Shown here: piece by piece, positions 23,049-32,281 of the stretch | Position numbering within the stretch: the first letter of the stretch is position 1 | How the letters are laid out: every line of letters begins with the position of its first letter | NCBI RefSeq assembly: GCF_900141735.1 | Contig: NZ_FQYO01000003.1 | Span: 558,001-622,000, forward strand | Direction: 5' to 3' | DNA length: 64,000 nucleotides | Source of the DNA: Wenxinia saemankumensis | GTDB lineage: Bacteria; Pseudomonadota; Alphaproteobacteria; Rhodobacterales; Rhodobacteraceae | Notes under the pieces: generated by a model | What the model saw: only the letters and a program-made list of their open reading frames with translations | What the model was told of the DNA's origin: nothing | The model's database searches: none | Translations under genes and position numbers: made by a program

Positions 23049-24791
23049 TCAGTCCTTCGACGGGGCGAGGGGGGTGAAGGTCAGGACGATGCGGAAGAGA
23101 TCCGGCTCGTTCAGGGTCTCGTAGCCGCCGCCGGTCTGCGCCGCGAAGGCGGCGAGCAGGCGCTGGCCCAGTCCGGTGCCGCCGTCGAGACCGCTCCGGT
23201 CCGCGTCGGTCCCCGGCTGGCTGTTCGCGATCTCGATCCGGGCCTTGTCGGTGCCCGGAACGCGGTCCATCCGCACGATGAGCCGCATCGACGCGCTGGG
23301 CGACTTCGCAGCGTAGCGCAGCGCGTTCGTCAGCGCCTCGGTCACGAAGAGCGAGACCGGCACCGCCTGGTCCGGGAGCAACTGGACCGGGGCGAAGCTC
23401 GTCTCCAGATCGACCGGCCGTCCGGGGGTCGAGGACATCCGCAAGATCTGCTGAAGGATCTCGGACAGCAGCTCGTCGGCATGGATCTCGGTCAGGCCGG
23501 ATGTGTGGTAAAGCTCCTTGTGGACGGTGGCGAGGCTCATCACCCGCTCCTGCAGGGACCGGATCAGCCGCTTGGCCTCGGCGCTGTGCGCTGTGCGCAT
23601 CTGCAGGTTCATGATCGAGGCGATGAGCTGCAGGTTGTTCTTCACCCGGTGGTGCACCTCGCGCAGCAGCACCTCCTTCTGCCGGATCGTATCCTCCAGC
23701 TCGGCCTCGTCGCGCAGGATCGTGTCGGTCATCGCGAGGAAGCTGTCGGCGAGGTCGCGGATCTCGACCGGGGCGCTGTCGGACCGGACCCTGCCGACGA
23801 CCCGGGTGCCGCCGGCGAAAGAGGACATCGCCCGCCCGAGCGGCCGCAGGTGACGCAGCACCAGCCGGTCGGCGGCGAGCCAGGCCATCAGCATGCTGCC
23901 CACGAACATCAGCGCCGGCAGAAGCAGCGGCGAGAGGCTCTGGCTCAGATCGAGCTCGGCCACCCGGCGCGGCCAGCTGCCCATGGCGTAGAACTGTCCG
24001 GGCACGATGGCCGCGACCGAATAGGCCCGGCGCTGGCCCTCGCGGCTGAAGCTGTTGAAGCTCTGCTGTCCCTGGTCGGCCAGCTGATCCAGCGTCCGGC
24101 CCTGGGGCAGCGTGTCGCTCACGTCCTCGAGCGGGATCGACGAGGTCAGCACCTCGCCCTCCGGGCCGAAGGTGATGAGGGTCGTCTCGCGCTCGAGCGC
24201 GTATTGCGGCGTGCCCTCCTGCAGGACGGGGGCGCGAACCCTCGGCAGCGAGATCGCGACGAATCCCGCGCGGTCCCCCTCCGCGTCGAAGACCGGGCTC
24301 ACCGCCCCGACCACCGCGGCGCCCGACAGGGGCGCGACGTTGTTGGCGTAATAGCCAGGCGTGTCGCGCGAGGCGGCATCCTCGAAGATGCTGAGTCCCT
24401 GCACGTTCATCCGCGAGCCGTCCGAGGCGCAGAGAACGTCCCCCTCGTTGTCGACATAGGCCAGCGCGCTGAACTGCGAGCGGCCCTCGACCACGTCGGC
24501 CAGCGCGGCGTCGCAGGCCTCCGGCGATTCGTCGTAGATGAGCGGAACCGTCTCGGCGAGCGAGTCGGCGATGCCCCGCGCCTCGTAGATCAGGCGCGCC
24601 TCGATCGCGGCGGTATGCAGGGTGACGCCCATCAGGCCGAGCTCGGACCGTCCCTGGGCCTCGCGGATCACCGCAAGGGCCTGCCAGACCGCGATCACCG
24701 CAAGCGGAAGCAGGGCGATCGCGATCGAGAGGGAAAGTCTGACTGCCAGCCTGTCGAAGAACCTCCGGAACGGGCCCGGAGACTCCGTCAT
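23049..24791 (-). CDS. Membrane sensor histidine kinase of the HisKA_2/HWE group (PhyK-like)
   Basis: A 580-residue inner-membrane kinase. The first membrane helix is near residues 18-38. A periplasmic sensing region of about 250 residues follows, with two Cys (EACDAALAD, VLCASDG) that might form a disulfide. The second helix 'LLPALMFVGSMLMAWLAA' is near residue 300, followed by a HAMP-like linker. The dimerisation/phosphotransfer helix is EVHHRVKNNLQLIASIMNLQ, the hallmark of HisKA_2. The ATPase domain has FVTEALTNALRYA as N-box and GGTGLGQRLL as G-box. It overlaps ecfG by 4 nt (ATGA), so it very likely phosphorylates PhyR in the general stress response. Confidence 0.88.
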   Translation of the reverse strand: MTESPGPFRRFFDRLAVRLSLSIAIALLPLAVIAVWQALAVIREAQGRSELGLMGVTLHTAAIEARLIYEARGIADSLAETVPLIYDESPEACDAALADVVEGRSQFSALAYVDNEGDVLCASDGSRMNVQGLSIFEDAASRDTPGYYANNVAPLSGAAVVGAVSPVFDAEGDRAGFVAISLPRVRAPVLQEGTPQYALERETTLITFGPEGEVLTSSIPLEDVSDTLPQGRTLDQLADQGQQSFNSFSREGQRRAYSVAAIVPGQFYAMGSWPRRVAELDLSQSLSPLLLPALMFVGSMLMAWLAADRLVLRHLRPLGRAMSSFAGGTRVVGRVRSDSAPVEIRDLADSFLAMTDTILRDEAELEDTIRQKEVLLREVHHRVKNNLQLIASIMNLQMRTAHSAEAKRLIRSLQERVMSLATVHKELYHTSGLTEIHADELLSEILQQILRMSSTPGRPVDLETSFAPVQLLPDQAVPVSLFVTEALTNALRYAAKSPSASMRLIVRMDRVPGTDKARIEIANSQPGTDADRSGLDGGTGLGQRLLAAFAAQTGGGYETLNEPDLFRIVLTFTPLAPSKD

Positions 24792-25363
24792 GCGGCCTGT
24801 ACCCCGGATTTGCCCATGATGCCCATCGTCGCGGCATCGCCGGCGACGAGGACGTCCTCGCCCTCCGCCAGGCCCATCAGTTCGGCGAGACGGGCCCGGG
24901 CGCGGGAGGCGCGGCTCTTCACCGTGCCGACCTTGACGCCCATCATGTCCGCGGCCTCCTCGTAGCCGAAACCCGAGGCCCCGACGAGGATCAGCACCTC
25001 GCGGTGCTCGGCCGAGAGCTGGTCGAAGGCGCGCTTGAAGTCGCCCATCGCGAGGCGGCCGTCATGGCTCGGCTTCTCGTAGAGCGTGTCGCTGTAGGCG
25101 CCGTCGGGATCGGGCACCTCGCGCTTTCGCTTGCGGCGGTCGGAATAGAACGTGTTGCGCAGGATGGTGAACAGCCACGCCCGCATGTTCGATCCGGGCT
25201 GGAACGTGTCAATCTTCGTCCAGGCCTTGACGATCGTGTCCTGCACGAGGTCGTCGGCATTGGCGGAATTGCGCGTCAGCGACAGCGCGAAGGCGCGCAG
25301 CGGCTTGAGGTGGTCCTGGATCTCGTCGCGGGGATGGCCGCGCTCGGCACTGCGTTCGCTCAC
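24788..25363 (-). CDS. ecfG: General stress response ECF sigma factor EcfG
   Basis: A 191-residue ECF15-type sigma factor. Region 2 reads 'LRAFALSLTRNSANADDLVQDTIVKAWTKIDTFQPGSNMRAWLFTILRN' and region 4 'LSAEHREVLILVGASGFGYEEAADMMGVKVGTVKSRASRAR'. It directs polymerase to GGAAC-N16-CGTT promoters and is held by NepR until phospho-PhyR sequesters NepR. The start is the GTG at 25363, overlapping the nepR stop as GTGA. The next gene, the kinase, overlaps the 3' end as ATGA. Autoregulation is likely, because an EcfG-type promoter lies before nepR. Confidence 0.93.
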   Translation of the reverse strand: MSERSAERGHPRDEIQDHLKPLRAFALSLTRNSANADDLVQDTIVKAWTKIDTFQPGSNMRAWLFTILRNTFYSDRRKRKREVPDPDGAYSDTLYEKPSHDGRLAMGDFKRAFDQLSAEHREVLILVGASGFGYEEAADMMGVKVGTVKSRASRARARLAELMGLAEGEDVLVAGDAATMGIMGKSGVQAA

Positions 25364-25533
25364 GAGCCGCCCTCCTTCTTCTTGAGCTGCTCGAGCAGGT
25401 CGCGGAATTTGTCGGGAACCTCCTCGTTCAGGGCATCCTGGTATACCTTCTTCAGGTTCTCATCGATCTGGTTCCGGATGGATGATTTGTCGCTGTCCTC
25501 GCCCATCTCCACCTTCTTCATAGCAAAATTCAT
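25360..25533 (-). CDS. nepR: Anti-sigma factor NepR
   Basis: A 57-residue protein. The conserved two-helix core is visible: 'IRNQIDENLKKVYQDALNEE' followed by 'VPDKFRDLLEQLKKKE', matching the NepR pattern of two helices around a V-P-D-(R/K)-F turn. It binds EcfG and is captured by the sigma-like domain of PhyR. The start is the ATG at 25533 (MNFAMKKVEMGED); an ATG at codon 5 is possible. It is translationally coupled to ecfG by a GTGA overlap and sits about 25 nt behind a consensus EcfG promoter. Confidence 0.92.
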   Translation of the reverse strand: MNFAMKKVEMGEDSDKSSIRNQIDENLKKVYQDALNEEVPDKFRDLLEQLKKKEGGS

Positions 25534-25556
25534 GGTTCCCGTTCCGTCGCGCCGTC

Positions 25557-25582
25557 GGAACCAAACGGACCCGGGCGGTGTT
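25557..25582 (+). promoter_or_regulatory. EcfG-like promoter of phyR, mirror image of the nepR promoter
   Basis: On the plus strand GGAACC (25557-25562), a 16-nt spacer and TGTT (25579-25582), one base from the CGTT consensus. The two promoters are created by one inverted repeat, GGAACCAAAC (25557-25566) and GTTTGGTTCC (25580-25589). The phyR ATG follows at 25616. Confidence 0.65.
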
Positions 25583-25589
25583 TGGTTCC
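25564..25589 (-). promoter_or_regulatory. EcfG promoter of nepR-ecfG-kinase operon
   Basis: On the minus strand GGAACC (25589-25584), a 16-nt spacer and CGTT (25567-25564): a full match to the alphaproteobacterial EcfG consensus. It lies about 30 nt upstream of the nepR ATG. Confidence 0.8.
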
Positions 25590-25615
25590 CGACTAGCGAC
25601 TACGGGGAGCACACG

Positions 25616-26413
25616 ATGTCCAGTTCGATCGCCACAGCGGTTGGGGAAAATCTGCCGTATCTGCGGCGTTACGCGCGGGCGCTGACGGGGGACCAGACGA
25701 CCGGCGACAAATACGCCGCGGCCACGCTCGAGGCGCTGATCGCCGATCCGTCGTCGATGGAGTCCACAAGTGGTCCGAAGACGGCCCTCTTCCATGCCTT
25801 CCACATGATCTGGTCCTCGTCCGGGGCCGAACTCGGCTCTGCCGAGGATGCGATCTCGGCCCGGGCGCAGGCGCACATGGCGAAACTGACGCCCAAGACC
25901 CGCGAGGCGCTGCTTCTCTCGACGATCGAGGGCTTCACGGATTCCGAGATCGCCGAGATCATGCAGACCGACGAGGACGAGGCGCGCGAGCTGCAGAGCA
26001 TCGCGGTCTCGGAGATGTCGGATTCGATGACCGGCCGGGTGATGATCATCGAGGACGAGGCGATCATCGCGATGGATCTCGCGGCCACGGTGCAGGAACT
26101 CGGCCACGAGGTGACGGGCATCGCCCGGACCCGGACCGAGGCGGTCGCGCTGGCCCAGAAGACCGAGCCCGACCTGATCCTCGCGGACATCCAGCTCGCC
26201 GACAATTCCTCGGGCATCGACGCGATCAAGGACATCCTCGAGAACCACCCGGACCTGCCGGTGGTGTTCATCACCGCCTTCCCCGAGCGGCTGCTGACGG
26301 GCGAGCGACCGGAGCCGGCCTTCCTCATCACCAAGCCCTATGTCGAGAGCCAGGTGCGTTCGGCGGTGAGCCAGGCGATGTTCTTCTCCTCGACCGAGAC
26401 GCTGCACGCCTGA
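25616..26413 (+). CDS. phyR: General stress response regulator PhyR
   Basis: A 265-residue two-domain anti-anti-sigma factor. Residues 1 to about 135 mimic an ECF sigma factor ('LPYLRRYARALTGDQTTGDKYAAATLEALI', 'LTPKTREALLLSTIEGFTDSEIAEIM'). Residues 140-265 are a receiver domain with acidic pocket 'VMIIEDEAIIAMDLA', phospho-acceptor Asp at 191 in DLILADIQL, and conserved Lys in FLITKPY. When phosphorylated, it releases its sigma-like domain to bind NepR and so frees EcfG. The start is the ATG at 25616 behind ACGGGGAGCACACG. Divergent from nepR-ecfG. Confidence 0.95.
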   Translation: MSSSIATAVGENLPYLRRYARALTGDQTTGDKYAAATLEALIADPSSMESTSGPKTALFHAFHMIWSSSGAELGSAEDAISARAQAHMAKLTPKTREALLLSTIEGFTDSEIAEIMQTDEDEARELQSIAVSEMSDSMTGRVMIIEDEAIIAMDLAATVQELGHEVTGIARTRTEAVALAQKTEPDLILADIQLADNSSGIDAIKDILENHPDLPVVFITAFPERLLTGERPEPAFLITKPYVESQVRSAVSQAMFFSSTETLHA

Positions 26414-26484: not shown

Positions 26485-26856
26485 TCACGTTTCTGGGGGC
26501 CCTTCGGGCGCGATCAGGCGGCGCAGCGAATCCGATCCGAAGGGGCGGTGCAGCACCGGCCAGGGCGAGTCCTCCGCCGCCCGTTCGGCCGCCGGCCCGA
26601 ACAGGATCACCCGCGCGTCGTGCGCGGCGAGGGCGAGCTGCAGGGCCGAGCTCGACAGTTCGGCCGGCCCCAGCTCCAGCACGACGACGCGCACGTCCTG
26701 CACCGTGGCGAGCGCGTCGGTCGCATCGTCGATGTCGGCGACGCGCACGACGACATGATCCGGATGCATCTCCGCCAGCGCGGTGTCGAGGTCGTCGGCG
26801 ATCAGCGGGTCTCGGATCAGGATGAGGTTCCGGGGGGAATGGGTCGTGTCGGTCAT
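26485..26856 (-). CDS. Receiver-like protein with altered phosphorylation site
   Basis: A 123-residue single domain with the alternating beta/alpha pattern of a response-regulator receiver. Strand 1 is 'RNLILIRDPLIADDLDTAL'. Strand 3 is 'VRVVVLELGPAEL', where Glu stands where the phospho-accepting Asp is expected. The C-terminal 'WPVLHRPFGSDSLRRLI' replaces the usual Lys-Pro by Arg-Pro. I therefore read it as a pseudo-receiver that cannot be phosphorylated in the normal way. It is convergent with phyR and may modulate the stress response, but that is inference from location. Confidence 0.65.
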   Translation of the reverse strand: MTDTTHSPRNLILIRDPLIADDLDTALAEMHPDHVVVRVADIDDATDALATVQDVRVVVLELGPAELSSSALQLALAAHDARVILFGPAAERAAEDSPWPVLHRPFGSDSLRRLIAPEGPPET

Positions 26857-27688: not shown

Positions 27689-28069
27689 TCAGCCGGCGCC
27701 GGGCCCGGTGCCGGCTTCCGGCCGGCAGTAGATCGCGTCGAGCGCCATCATCAGACGCGCCACGCGGGGATCGGCGATCCGGTAATGGATCGTCGTGCCC
27801 GCACGGCGGGTCGCGACCATCCCGGCCTCGCGCAGCCGGGCGAGGTGCTGGCTGAGCGCGGACTGCCCCAGACCCAGCTCCGCCTGCAGCGCGCCGACCG
27901 ACATCTCGCCCCCGGCGAGCTTGCACAGGACGAGAAGCCGGATGGGGTTCGACAGCTGCCCGAGCTGGGCCGACACCATGCCGGCCTTCTCCTCGATCGC
28001 CTCGGTGCCGCCCGTCGTCGCGGCAAGAAGGACAGGGGAATCAGAAATATTCATCATCGTGAATTTCAT
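27689..28069 (-). CDS. ArsR-family repressor, BigR/SqrR-like sulfide/persulfide sensor
   Basis: A 126-residue winged-helix repressor. The DNA-reading helix lies in '[30 protein letters not shown]'. Two cysteines, in [11 protein letters not shown] and near the C-terminus in IYCRPE, are at the positions that form the tetrasulfide/disulfide switch in SqrR and BigR. The role is to repress the divergent sulfur operon and to release it on sulfide or persulfide stress. Start choice is open among ATGs at 28069, 28057 and 28054; the later ones have better spacing from AAGG. Confidence 0.85.
28049..28064. promoter_or_regulatory. SqrR-type ATTC-N8-GAAT site
   Basis: ATTC (28049-28052), 8 nt, GAAT (28061-28064). 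This is the half-site arrangement I recall for SqrR. It overlaps the candidate start codons of the repressor gene, which suits autoregulation. Confidence 0.5.
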
Positions 28070-28076
28070 GCCTTGC

Positions 28077-28098
28077 TAAATTAGACCGACCTAATATA
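28077..28098. promoter_or_regulatory. BigR-type operator
   Basis: Inverted repeat TAAATTAG-ACCGAC-CTAATATA (8-bp arms, one mismatch) in the divergent region between repressor and sulfur operon. It is by far the most A+T-rich spot nearby and probably overlaps both promoters. Confidence 0.65.
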
Positions 28099-28135
28099 TC
28101 CGCTCGGCCAACGAGATTCCAGAGCGGACCGCCCC

Positions 28136-28576
28136 ATGACCCCTCCCATCCTCACCGAGTTCACCCCCTGGCAGGCGCTGGGCGGCGGCGCGCTGATCGG
28201 CCTCGCCGCGGTGCTGCTGATGGCCCTTCACGGCCGCATCCTCGGCGCGACCGGCATCGCGGCCGGGATCCTGCCGGGCGGCGGCACGGACAAGGGCTGG
28301 CGCATCGCCATCGTCGCCGGCATGGCGACGGCCCCGCTGGCCTGGCTGTTCGCGACCGGCGCGATGCCCGTCGTCGCCGTGCCCGTCCCTCTCGCCATGA
28401 TCGCGCTCGGCGGCCTGATCGTCGGGTTCGGCGTCAGCTACTCGTCCGGTTGCACCTCGGGCCACGGCGTCTGCGGGATCGCCCGGCTGTCGCCGCGCTC
28501 CATCGTGGCCACGCTGACCTTCATGGCCAGCGCCTTCGCCACCGTCTTCGTCATCCGCCACCTGATCGGAGCCTGA
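28136..28576 (+). CDS. YeeE/YedE family half-transporter (PmpA-like)
   Basis: A 146-residue inner-membrane protein with four hydrophobic helices. The motif '[26 protein letters not shown]' carries the two cysteines typical of YeeE/YedE sulfur-compound channels; family members import thiosulfate or related sulfur species. This is the N-terminal half of a two-gene transporter, with the partner starting 4 nt downstream. It is the first gene of the BigR-controlled operon. The start is the ATG at 28136. Confidence 0.9.
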
Positions 28577-28580
28577 TCCC

Positions 28581-29018
28581 ATGCGCCTGTTCTCCGCCTA
28601 CCTGATCGGCCTTGTCTTCGGCCTCGGCATCGTGCTGGCCGGGATGGCCAACCCCGCGAAGGTGCTGAACTTCTTCGACATCGCGGGGACATGGGATCCC
28701 TCGCTGGCGCTCGTCATGGTCAGCGCCCTGACCGTCACGGGGCTCGGCTACCGCTTCGTCCTGCGGCGCGGGGCGCCGGTGCTGGGCGTGGCGTTCCACC
28801 TGCCGACCTCGCGGCTGATCGACCGGCCTCTGGTCGCCGGCTCGGCCCTGTTCGGCCTCGGCTGGGGGATCGCCGGTTTCTGCCCCGGCGGCGCGCTGCC
28901 CGCGCTCGGTACCGGCCGGCCGGACGTGATCCTGTTCGTCGCGGCGATGATCGCCGGAATGTATGCCGCGCGCCTGTGGCGCGCCCGCACCGTCGCCCGC
29001 CGCTATGCCCCGGCCTGA
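28581..29018 (+). CDS. YeeE/YedE family half-transporter (PmpB-like)
   Basis: A 145-residue membrane protein, the second half of the sulfur transporter. Landmarks are '[27 protein letters not shown]' at the N-terminus and '[19 protein letters not shown]' with a single pore Cys. Four helices are predicted. It follows the first half after only 4 nt, so they are surely co-translated. In BigR operons this pair is thought to move sulfur species across the inner membrane; direction and exact substrate are not settled. Confidence 0.9.
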
Positions 29019-29043
29019 TCCGGCCGAAAGAGGAGTGAGAGAG

Positions 29044-29928
29044 ATGACCGCCTATCCCGTCGACCTGACCGTGCGCCCCGATGTCGAGGCCTTCTTCGAT
29101 CCGGCCACGAACACGATCAGCTACATCGTGAAGGATCCCGGCTCGGACGCCTGCGCCATCGTCGACAGCGTCATGGACATCGACTACGCCGCCGGCCGCA
29201 TCACCTACGAGCATGCCGACCGGATGATCGCCCGCGTGCAGGAGCGGGGCCTGCGGCTGGACTGGATCATCGAGACCCATGTTCATGCCGACCACCTCAG
29301 CGCCGCCCCCTACATCCAGGAGCGTCTGGGCGGTCGGATCGGCATCGGCGCGAAGATCCGCGTGGTGCAGGACACGTTCGGAAAGGTCTTTAACGAGGGG
29401 ACGGAGTTCCAGCGCGACGGCAGCCAGTTCGACGCCCTGTTCGAGGACGGCGACACCTACATGATCGGCGGGATGCGGGCCTTCGCCATGGACACGCCCG
29501 GCCACACGCCGGCCTGCATGGTGCATGTGATGGGCGACGCGGCCTTCGTCGGCGACACGCTCTTCATGCCCGACGGCGGATCGGCCCGGGCCGATTTCCC
29601 CGGCGGCGATGCCGGTCAGCTCTACGACAGCATTCAGAAGGTGCTGGCCCTGCCGGACGAGACGCGGCTCTTCATGTGCCACGATTACGGACCGAACGGC
29701 CGCGACATCCAGTGGGAGACCACGGTCGGGGAAGAGAAGGCGCACAACATCCATGTCGGCCGGGATCGGACGAAGGAGGAGTTCGTCGCCTTCCGCACCG
29801 AGCGGGACGCCCAGCTCGCCATGCCGCGGCTGATCATCCCTTCGCTGCAGGTGAACATGCGCGCCGGCGAGGTGCCGACCGACAAGGACGGACGGCCGAT
29901 GCTGAAGGTGCCGCTGAACGGCCTCTGA
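29044..29928 (+). CDS. MBL-fold persulfide dioxygenase-like protein (Blh/ETHE1 type)
   Basis: A 294-residue metallo-beta-lactamase fold protein with ETHVHADHLSAAPY near residue 80, GHTPACMVHVMGD, FVGDTLFMPDGGSARADFPGG and MCHDYGPNGR. These match ETHE1-like glutathione persulfide dioxygenases, which bind one iron by two His and one Asp and form sulfite. 'VNMRAGEVPTDKDGRPMLKVPLNGL' is the same tail as in the paralogue at 3912. The start is the ATG at 29044 behind AAGAGGAGTGAGAG. It is the third gene of the BigR-type operon. Confidence 0.92.
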   Translation: MTAYPVDLTVRPDVEAFFDPATNTISYIVKDPGSDACAIVDSVMDIDYAAGRITYEHADRMIARVQERGLRLDWIIETHVHADHLSAAPYIQERLGGRIGIGAKIRVVQDTFGKVFNEGTEFQRDGSQFDALFEDGDTYMIGGMRAFAMDTPGHTPACMVHVMGDAAFVGDTLFMPDGGSARADFPGGDAGQLYDSIQKVLALPDETRLFMCHDYGPNGRDIQWETTVGEEKAHNIHVGRDRTKEEFVAFRTERDAQLAMPRLIIPSLQVNMRAGEVPTDKDGRPMLKVPLNGL

Positions 29929-29974
29929 CACCCCCGCCCCCGGTCCCCCCCCCCTCCGCTCTCAGGTGACCCGC

Positions 29975-30403
29975 ATGGATATCCGCCAGATCGCACCCGG
30001 CCTCTCGGTCGGCCCGCAGATCGTTCCAGCCGACATCGCCGCGCTGAAGGCCGCCGGCTTCGGAGCGATCGTCTCGAACCGCCCGGACGGCGAGGAAGCG
30101 GGGCAGCCCGCCTCCGCCGAGATCGCCCGCGCGGCGCAGGCGGCGGGCCTCGCCTTCCGCGCCCAGCCGATCCGGCCCGGGCAGGTGGGCGCTCAGGACG
30201 CGGCCGATTTCGGTGCGCTGCTGGAGGCGCTGCCGGGCCCGGTCTTCGCCTATTGCCGGACCGGCACCCGGGCCGCGACGCTCTGGGCGCTGTCGCAGGC
30301 CGGCCGCCGCCCGGCCGAAGGGATCATCGCCGCAGCCCGTGCCGCCGGCTACGACCTCGCCCCCCTGCGGGACCGGCTGGAACGGGGCGCCGTCGAGGAC
30401 TGA
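29975..30403 (+). CDS. TIGR01244/DUF442 family sulfurtransferase-phosphatase-like protein
   Basis: A 142-residue dual-specificity-phosphatase/rhodanese-like domain. It opens 'MDIRQIAPGLSVGPQIVPADIAALKAAGF' and has the catalytic loop YCRTGTRA near residue 92. In BigR operons this domain is often fused to the MBL domain (Blh); here the two are separate genes 46 nt apart. It probably handles a protein or low-molecular persulfide. The ATG at 29975 is preferred behind CAGGTGACCCGC; the GTG at 29966 is the alternative. Confidence 0.85.
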   Translation: MDIRQIAPGLSVGPQIVPADIAALKAAGFGAIVSNRPDGEEAGQPASAEIARAAQAAGLAFRAQPIRPGQVGAQDAADFGALLEALPGPVFAYCRTGTRAATLWALSQAGRRPAEGIIAAARAAGYDLAPLRDRLERGAVED

Positions 30404-30431
30404 GCCTACGATACCGCCGGCCAGTCCGACC

Positions 30432-30486
30432 GACGGGCGGGCCGGGACGGGATGGACCGCCGGACGGGCGGGCCGGGACGGGATGG
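30432..30486 (+). repeat. 24-nt direct repeat before the SulP gene
   Basis: The 24-nt unit beginning GACGGGCGGGCCGGGACGGG occurs at 30432-30455 and again at 30463-30486 (period 31). It lies in the 120-nt gap inside the sulfur operon, just before the SulP ribosome-binding site. Confidence 0.75.
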
Positions 30487-30523
30487 GCCCCCGCAGGGGC
30501 GGCCCGACGAAGGAGATGGGACG

Positions 30524-32281
30524 ATGACGCTCACCCGCTACCTGCCGATCCTCGACTGGGGGCGGCGCTACGACCGCGAGGCCTTCGCCTCCGACGCGGT
30601 GGCGGCCCTGATCGTGACGATCATGCTGATCCCGCAATCGCTGGCCTACGCGATGCTGGCCGGCCTGCCGCCGGAAGCGGGGATCTACGCCTCGATCGCG
30701 CCGATCCTGCTCTACGCGGTCTTCGGCACCAGCCGCGCACTGGCCGTGGGGCCGGTCGCGGTCGTCTCGCTCCTCACCGCCGCCGCGGTGGGGCAGGTGG
30801 CCGAGGCGGGGACGGCCGGCTATGCGGTGGCGGCGCTGACGCTTGCCTTCCTGTCGGGGGCGTTCCTTCTGGCGCTCGGCCTGTTCCGGCTGGGCTTCAT
30901 CGCGAACTTCCTCAGCCACCCGGTGATCGCGGGCTTCATCACCGCCTCCGGCATCCTGATCGCGGCCAGCCAGCTCAAGCACATCCTCGGTATCCCTGCT
31001 TCGGGCGACACCCTCTTCGAGATGGCCTACGAGCTGGGCCGGGGCCTCGACCGGGTGAACCTGCCGACCCTCGTGATCGGGGTCACGGCGACCGCCTTCC
31101 TGTTCTGGGTGCGCCGGGGGCTGAAGCCGCTGCTGCGCCGCGCCGGGCTGGGGCCGAAGGCCGCGGATTACGCGACCAAGGCCGGGCCCGTCGCGGCCGT
31201 GGTCGCCACGACGCTGGCGGTCTGGGCGCTGGGGCTGGATTCGGCGGGCGTCGGGATCGTGGGCACCGTCCCGCAGGGGTTGCCGCCCCTGACGCTGCCC
31301 GGCTTCTCCCCCGACCTGATCTCGCAGCTCCTGCTGCCGGCGATCCTGATCTCGGTCATCGGGTTCGTCGAGTCGATCTCGGTCGCCCAGACCCTCGCGG
31401 CGAAGCGCCGCCAGCGGATCGACCCCGACCAGGAGCTGATCGGCCTCGGCGCCGCCAATCTCGGGGCGGCCTTCACTGGCGGCTACCCGGTCACCGGCGG
31501 CTTCGCGCGCTCGGTCGTCAATTACGACGCCGGGGCCGCGACCCCGGCGGCGGGCGCCTTCACCGCCGCGGGGCTGATGGTCGCCGCGCTCGCGCTGACG
31601 CCGCTCGTCCACTACCTGCCGAACGCCACGCTCGCGGCCACGATCATCGTCGCGGTGACGAGCCTCGTCGATTTTTCGATCCTCTCGCGCACCTGGACCT
31701 ACGCGCGGGCCGATTTCCTCGCCGTGGCGGCGACGATCCTGCTGACGCTGGCCCTGGGGGTCGAGGCCGGCGTCTCGGCCGGGGTGCTGCTGTCGATCGC
31801 GCTGCACCTCTACAAGACGTCGAAGCCGCATGTGGCCGAAGTCGGCCGGATCGCGGGGACCGAGCATTTCCGAAACATCCTGCGTCACGAGGTCGAGACC
31901 GACCCCTCGGTCGTGTTCCTGCGGCCGGACGAGAGCCTCTACTTCGTCAATGCCCGCTTTCTCGAGGACATGGTGCTGGCGCGGATCGCGGATGCGCCCG
32001 CGCTGCGGCACGTCGTCCTCGTCTGCTCGGCGGTGAACGACGTCGACTTCTCTGCGCTGGAGAGCCTCGAGGCGCTGAACGCCCGGCTGCGCGAGGCGGG
32101 GATCGGCCTGCACCTGGCCGAGGTGAAGGGCCCGGTGATGGACCGGCTGCAGGGCTCGCATCTGCCGGGGGACCTGAACGGGCGCGTCTTCCTCACCCAG
32201 AACGCCGCCTGGTCCTGTCTCGTCGAGGGCGGGGCCGTGAACGAGGGGCGCGGCGGCTGGCGCATCGCCCGCGCGTCCTGA
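30524..32281 (+). CDS. SulP-family anion permease with STAS domain
   Basis: A 585-residue inner-membrane transporter. The signature 'MLIPQSLAYAMLAGLPPEAGIYASIAP' lies near residue 30. About eleven to twelve helices follow, with 'GGYPVTGGFARSVVNYDAGA' as the conserved transport loop. The C-terminal cytosolic STAS domain starts near residue 445 ('VVFLRPDESLYFVNARFLEDMVL', 'VVLVCSAVNDVDFSALESLEAL'). As last gene of the sulfur operon it probably exports or imports sulfate or sulfite produced by persulfide oxidation. The start is the ATG at 30524 behind GAAGGAGATGGGACG; a longer frame upstream runs through the direct repeat and is unlikely to be translated. Confidence 0.9.
   Translation: MTLTRYLPILDWGRRYDREAFASDAVAALIVTIMLIPQSLAYAMLAGLPPEAGIYASIAPILLYAVFGTSRALAVGPVAVVSLLTAAAVGQVAEAGTAGYAVAALTLAFLSGAFLLALGLFRLGFIANFLSHPVIAGFITASGILIAASQLKHILGIPASGDTLFEMAYELGRGLDRVNLPTLVIGVTATAFLFWVRRGLKPLLRRAGLGPKAADYATKAGPVAAVVATTLAVWALGLDSAGVGIVGTVPQGLPPLTLPGFSPDLISQLLLPAILISVIGFVESISVAQTLAAKRRQRIDPDQELIGLGAANLGAAFTGGYPVTGGFARSVVNYDAGAATPAAGAFTAAGLMVAALALTPLVHYLPNATLAATIIVAVTSLVDFSILSRTWTYARADFLAVAATILLTLALGVEAGVSAGVLLSIALHLYKTSKPHVAEVGRIAGTEHFRNILRHEVETDPSVVFLRPDESLYFVNARFLEDMVLARIADAPALRHVVLVCSAVNDVDFSALESLEALNARLREAGIGLHLAEVKGPVMDRLQGSHLPGDLNGRVFLTQNAAWSCLVEGGAVNEGRGGWRIARAS

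Follow-up and report, generated by a model that had tools for sequence, protein, structure and literature searches.

In a partner switch, the proportion of anti-sigma to anti-anti-sigma factor has to stay workable while the system's own product switches all of the genes on. How this might be achieved is a general question, and it is raised by a locus of Wenxinia saemankumensis in the 64,000-nucleotide stretch of DNA analysed here (the window, to whose positions the coordinates refer). In alphaproteobacteria, nepR–ecfG usually diverges from phyR and EcfG promoters drive both units, and the published loci, in the excerpts that describe them, have the same genes, the same divergent order and reported EcfG dependence of both units (PMC4814048, PMC8103513). 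At the window's locus, a 33-bp site between the divergent genes probably acts as one bidirectional promoter, consisting of two superimposed EcfG core promoters that would be used as alternatives.

The genes and the intergenic site

The gene phyR (25616–26413, plus strand), encoding the anti-anti-sigma response regulator, matches NF006623 (E = 1.3e-107), PF22029, PF22233 and PF00072. Divergent from it on the minus strand lie nepR for the anti-sigma factor (25360–25533; PF18557, E = 7.2e-16; no NCBIfam match), ecfG for the ECF sigma factor (24788–25363; NF009198, E = 2e-93; PF04542 and PF08281) and, nearby, a gene for a HisKA_2/HWE sensor histidine kinase (23049–24791; PF07568, E = 3.3e-21; PF07536) that scores 212 bits against the PhyK model, under its cut-off of 750 bits. 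These Pfam and NCBIfam profile matches uphold the identities that the initial annotation gave to all four genes. The start of nepR could be any of the in-frame ATGs from 25533, 25521 or 25506. Overlaps of 4 bp join ecfG to the nepR stop and the kinase gene to the end of ecfG, which fits an operon. Between phyR and a Crp/Fnr gene is a 123-residue open reading frame (26485–26856, minus strand) without a Pfam or NCBIfam match, which by eye resembles a degenerate receiver domain. A row of genes farther on (27689–32281) encodes an ArsR-type regulator and two sulphur-transport-like membrane proteins, together with a metallo-beta-lactamase-fold protein, a BLH phosphatase-like protein and a sulfate permease; by resemblance it is a sulfide/sulfur detoxification cluster.

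The stretch between nepR and phyR is 82 bases long and contains two facing arms, GGAACCAAAC (25557–25566) and GTTTGGTTCC (25580–25589), which are reverse complements of each other across a 13-bp gap. Read rightward, toward phyR, the site gives GGAACC-N16-TGTT, with the −35 at 25557–25562 and the −10 at 25579–25582 on the plus strand; read leftward, toward nepR–ecfG–kinase, it gives GGAACC-N16-CGTT, with the −35 at 25584–25589 and the −10 at 25564–25567 on the minus strand. These bases are exactly as first described, and so is the placement of each −35 beside the other promoter's −10 on the opposite strand, the two being one base apart. Both opposed core promoters lie on common base pairs inside 25557–25589. 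GGTTCC occurs a third time at 25534–25539, where the minus strand reads GGAACC, immediately upstream of the first ATG of nepR.

In the usual notation both directions read GGAAC-N17-NGTT, a spacer one base longer than in the published EcfG promoter GGAAC-N16-CGTT, as given in excerpts of the two reports consulted (PMC7083833, PMC3892343). Spacers of 16 and 17 are both frequent among relatives. The −35 GGAAC is present on both strands; the nepR-ward −10 is the consensus CGTT and the phyR-ward −10 the tolerated variant TGTT, where relatives most often have CGTT. A consensus scan of 25300–25800 found no sigma-70-like promoter. We infer that EcfG uses the site in W. saemankumensis. For comparison, the excerpted R. 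etli work reports that EcfG factors of that species recognise the phyR promoter in Escherichia coli (PMC3892343).

A single match to a loose one-promoter EcfG pattern proves little, because that pattern is found three times in the 64 kb against 2.3 expected. Over the whole genome, GGAAC-N16..18-BGTT has 71 and 76 matches on the two strands compared with 14 and 16 for the reversed control, an excess that fits a real EcfG regulon, and the paired mirror site occurs once in the 3.57 Mb. A strict, general form of the mirror pattern is found in 98 of 394 genomes of the family, versus 2 of 394 for its reversed control. Each of these 98 genomes belongs to the 189 (of 394) that have a PhyR match at E ≤ 1e-40 (hypergeometric P about 1e-39 with relatedness ignored), and among the 75 listed mirror sites the 67 with a listed PhyR position all lie 42–213 bp upstream of phyR. 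One genome (G384) has two paralogous phyR loci with a mirror at each; in two others (G315 and G357) one of the two phyR loci has the strict mirror. Among 385 genomes searched in a class-wide sample, four match, two of them outside the window's family. The mirror of G457 was rejected as an EcfG site, its gap being compatible with no EcfG spacing. In G596 (locus L136) a superimposed EcfG-like mirror lies away from phyR, at positions 1501–1532 of that locus, between what by eye is an apparent stand-alone response regulator, with the mirror upstream of it, and the 3′ end of another gene.

Conservation of the geometry in the family

We drew 157 phyR loci, nearly one per genus, from 204 PhyR matches in the window's family (the 47 left out are mostly weaker matches), and compared them with 80 named Rhodobacterales loci; rows without nepR were dropped before counting (4 of the 157 and 1 of the 80). 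Facing −35s 31–34 bp apart, with any −10, are present in 147 of the 153 family loci with a divergent nepR, compared with a mean of 0.1 and a maximum of 1 in shuffles, and in 77 of the 80 named loci. The initial annotation had called for this intergenic comparison across Rhodobacterales and had named loss of the symmetry in close relatives as a reason to abandon the idea; the symmetry is kept.

When complete promoters with a spacer of 16 or 17 are required, 128 of the 153 family loci have both, 13 the nepR-ward one only, 9 the phyR-ward one only and 3 neither. All 128 double loci have outward, superimposed promoters, with spans of 31, 32, 33 and 34 bp in 6, 75, 46 and 1 loci, respectively. In the named set, 63 loci have both promoters, again superimposed over spans of 31–34 bp, 13 have the phyR-ward one only, 3 the nepR-ward one only, and 1 is the locus without nepR. 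The one-sided losses indicate that the double arrangement is dispensable in some lineages.

The counts of complete promoters presuppose spacers of 16 or 17, and in an alignment of the columns loci were picked by GGAAC and GTT, so that the invariance of those letters is no proof of conservation there; the case for conservation is built on the facing −35s, the PhyR tree and a count with free spacers (below). Among letters that were not selected for, the sixth −35 base is C in 76–87% and the first −10 base is C in about 57–72%, and a neighbouring G/C pair is also kept. Between the two −10s the sequence is near-random, with no more than about 0.2 bit in most columns.

Because the palindrome is long, nearly perfect and flanked by divergent regulatory genes, it might instead serve as an operator through which a dimeric regulator controls both genes, by repression or by activation; such a role would call for a fixed spacing of the half-sites. 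The arm-to-arm span, however, varies from 31 to 34 bp, the arms gain or lose one base on one side, single halves are lost separately, and the arm letters agree with the published EcfG consensus. What stays constant is the distance of NGTT from GGAAC. With every spacer from 8 to 25 permitted in the 147 loci with facing −35s, phyR-ward NGTT is found at 16 in 77 loci and at 17 in 60 (137 of 147), and nepR-ward NGTT at 16 in 82 and at 17 in 55 (again 137 of 147). Any other single spacer accounts for at most 5, except spacers 20–23, at which the GTT of the opposite −35 is counted. The variable span, the one-sided insertions and the separate loss of halves lead us to reject the operator, which we regard as highly improbable.

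Superimposition could also be mere compaction, two EcfG promoters squeezed between closely spaced genes, and be without regulatory effect because polymerase is rarely saturating. By sequence logic, the AAC within GGAAC reads as GTT, the −10 core, on the opposite strand, so that an inverted repeat of −35s readily yields −10s; in addition, the aligned nepR start and the phyR match are a median of 135 bp apart in the family, compared with 270 bp in the 35 loci from other families in which nepR is divergent. Nevertheless, the facing −35s are kept where there is room, at distances above 200 bp in 11 and above 250 bp in 6 of the 147 loci and up to 410 bp, and the six loci without a facing pair are not the longest (115–154 bp). 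We consider compaction without regulatory effect a real possibility, although one that we doubt.

The −10 elements and the balance of directions

The initial annotation proposed that the one-base difference between the two −10s could set the ratio of the two outputs, and suggested checking whether this asymmetry is conserved. A locus-specific effect is plausible. In vitro, transcription by Sphingopyxis EcfG factors went down when CGTT was changed to TGTT and up when TGTT was changed to CGTT, TGTT being a working yet weaker −10 variant, as far as excerpts of that study describe it (PMC7083833). By analogy, phyR may be the weaker side in the window.

As a conserved ratio setter, in contrast, the difference fails. 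Among the 128 double loci, 74 have CGTT on both sides, 6 have the window's combination of CGTT (nepR) and TGTT (phyR), and 9 have the opposite one; the same-genus genome G001 (locus L003) has AGTT and TGTT. Over the 153 loci, a consensus −10 on one side only is found nepR-ward in 21 and phyR-ward in 31, favouring neither direction (p = 0.21). On a PhyR tree of 152 rows (one family row was left out), the consensus state of the −10 changes at least 41 times nepR-ward and at least 40 times phyR-ward, while facing −35s are absent from 6 rows only. On these counts and this tree we reject a conserved asymmetry. The two −10s being consensus together showed a raw association (odds ratio 3.07, p = 0.002) that did not persist when independent pairs were compared (14 supported pairs, median p of 1), and we have left it unused for that reason. 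In the family, the geometry is fixed and the quality of the −10s labile, either drifting or tuned.

The same data bear on the idea that EcfG transcribes in one direction alone, that the opposite half persists as a weak or silent relic, and that phyR or nepR–ecfG relies on another promoter. A complete promoter has been lost on one side in 22 of the 153 loci, and in R. sphaeroides the stress profiles of phyR and ecfG mRNA differ: in excerpts of that work, membrane stress raised ecfG mRNA in a PhyR-dependent manner and did not raise phyR mRNA, which went up under other stresses (PMC5830050). By analogy, phyR may be transcribed from an additional promoter as well, or the responses of the two directions may be uncoupled. 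Cereibacter johrii (L027) and Luteovulum azotoformans (L030), which we take to be close relatives of R. sphaeroides, have intact CGTT/CGTT mirrors. Against a silent half stand the losses in both directions (13 versus 9), the persistence of facing −35s on the tree while the −10s change, and the outcome of the sigma-70 scan around the window's site. We think a single working direction unlikely. In R. capsulatus, disruption of phyR and of ecfG left gene transfer agent production unaffected, according to the excerpted report (PMC3999984), a result that is uninformative on the promoters of these genes.

Proposed single occupancy and a second mirror geometry

If the two superimposed promoters are used as alternatives, EcfG–RNA polymerase would bind the 33-bp site in either of two orientations, transcribing nepR–ecfG, possibly with the kinase gene, after leftward binding and phyR after rightward binding. 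Each arm would serve twice, contributing a −35 to one promoter and a −10 to its opposite. Starts are predicted about 7 nt past each −10. The predicted start of the nepR-ward transcript (25557) falls within the phyR-ward −35, and that of the phyR-ward transcript (25589) within the nepR-ward −35, so a bound EcfG-polymerase should block the other direction and two polymerases should not fit together. From this geometry, mutually exclusive binding and competition between the directions are likely. Each side of the partner switch would then be expressed at the expense of the other, the two outputs together would be limited to one initiation per promoter clearance, and the ratio of NepR/EcfG to PhyR synthesis would be set by the relative strengths of the promoters and not by the level of free EcfG.

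We explored this in a simple occupancy calculation with strengths of 10:1 and a varied EcfG level. The calculation predicts that the output ratio of superimposed promoters stays at 10 at every EcfG level, whereas that of separate promoters drops from 9.2 to 1.0, and that total output has a ceiling of 1 for superimposed versus 2 for separate promoters. With equal strengths, locking the ratio gives no gain over separate promoters. A locked ratio of NepR/EcfG to PhyR is what we infer for the window's site.

These considerations lead to a broader reading that we advance tentatively, at a little less than an even chance. On a single-occupancy promoter the polymerase would have to choose between sigma plus anti-sigma factor and anti-anti-sigma factor, which would fix their ratio at any EcfG level and cap the autocatalytic loop; the family would have fixed the geometry and tuned the −10s, and a back-to-back mirror elsewhere would admit two polymerases. 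If this holds, the question of proportion in partner switches would have a minimal solution, namely 33 conserved base pairs at which the polymerase is made to pick one direction.

Several known systems have opposed promoters on common DNA. Warman et al. 2021 reportedly described bidirectional promoters that arise from sequence symmetry, in which the housekeeping −10 itself is said to be common to both directions. The window's site is alike in that symmetry would let one site fire both ways; it differs in that ECF −35 and −10 elements alternate in two arms, and in that both products regulate the sigma factor itself. Overlapping divergent promoters act as a switch at bioA/bioB. They reportedly do so too for the conjugation genes of pLS20 (PMC4207663); as described, these two systems involve separate regulators or DNA looping, unlike the window, whose sequence implies the sigma factor alone. 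In the open-licence PubMed Central literature that we searched, we came across no account of the superimposed EcfG geometry; dual EcfG control of the divergent genes has been described before.

Outside the family a different mirror is found. Our class-wide sample comprises 67 phyR loci; one of them, L341, belongs to the window's family, and another, L328, could not be used for its upstream DNA (700 bases). Twelve loci with divergent nepR, from nine other families (L022, L278, L282, L283, L284, L288, L292, L293, L295, L297, L302 and L308), have back-to-back −35s, GTTCC-N6..9-GGAAC, unlike the superimposed ones of the window; the spacing is N8 in 8 of the 12, and both −10s are matched as well in 10 of the 12. 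A mechanical scan for the back-to-back form gave 14 of the 67 loci against a shuffle mean of 0.3; L300, far upstream and without nepR, and L280, with an artefactual nepR position, were rejected as cases. In three loci of one genus (L315, L323 and L327) the promoters are superimposed, and the phyR-ward −10 is CATT. In the remaining loci the two promoters are spaced differently (L281, L286, L301, L325 and L329 are examples), or there is one promoter or none. In this sample, superimposition is mainly a trait of the window's family, and fixed geometry with labile −10s on the one side and back-to-back families on the other form a natural comparison. In three further loci of one genus (L305, L306 and L309, from G429, G729 and G653), the DNA upstream of phyR has a compact inverted repeat, GGAACC-N15-GGTTCC, whose −35 on either strand could also provide the opposite strand with a GGTT −10.
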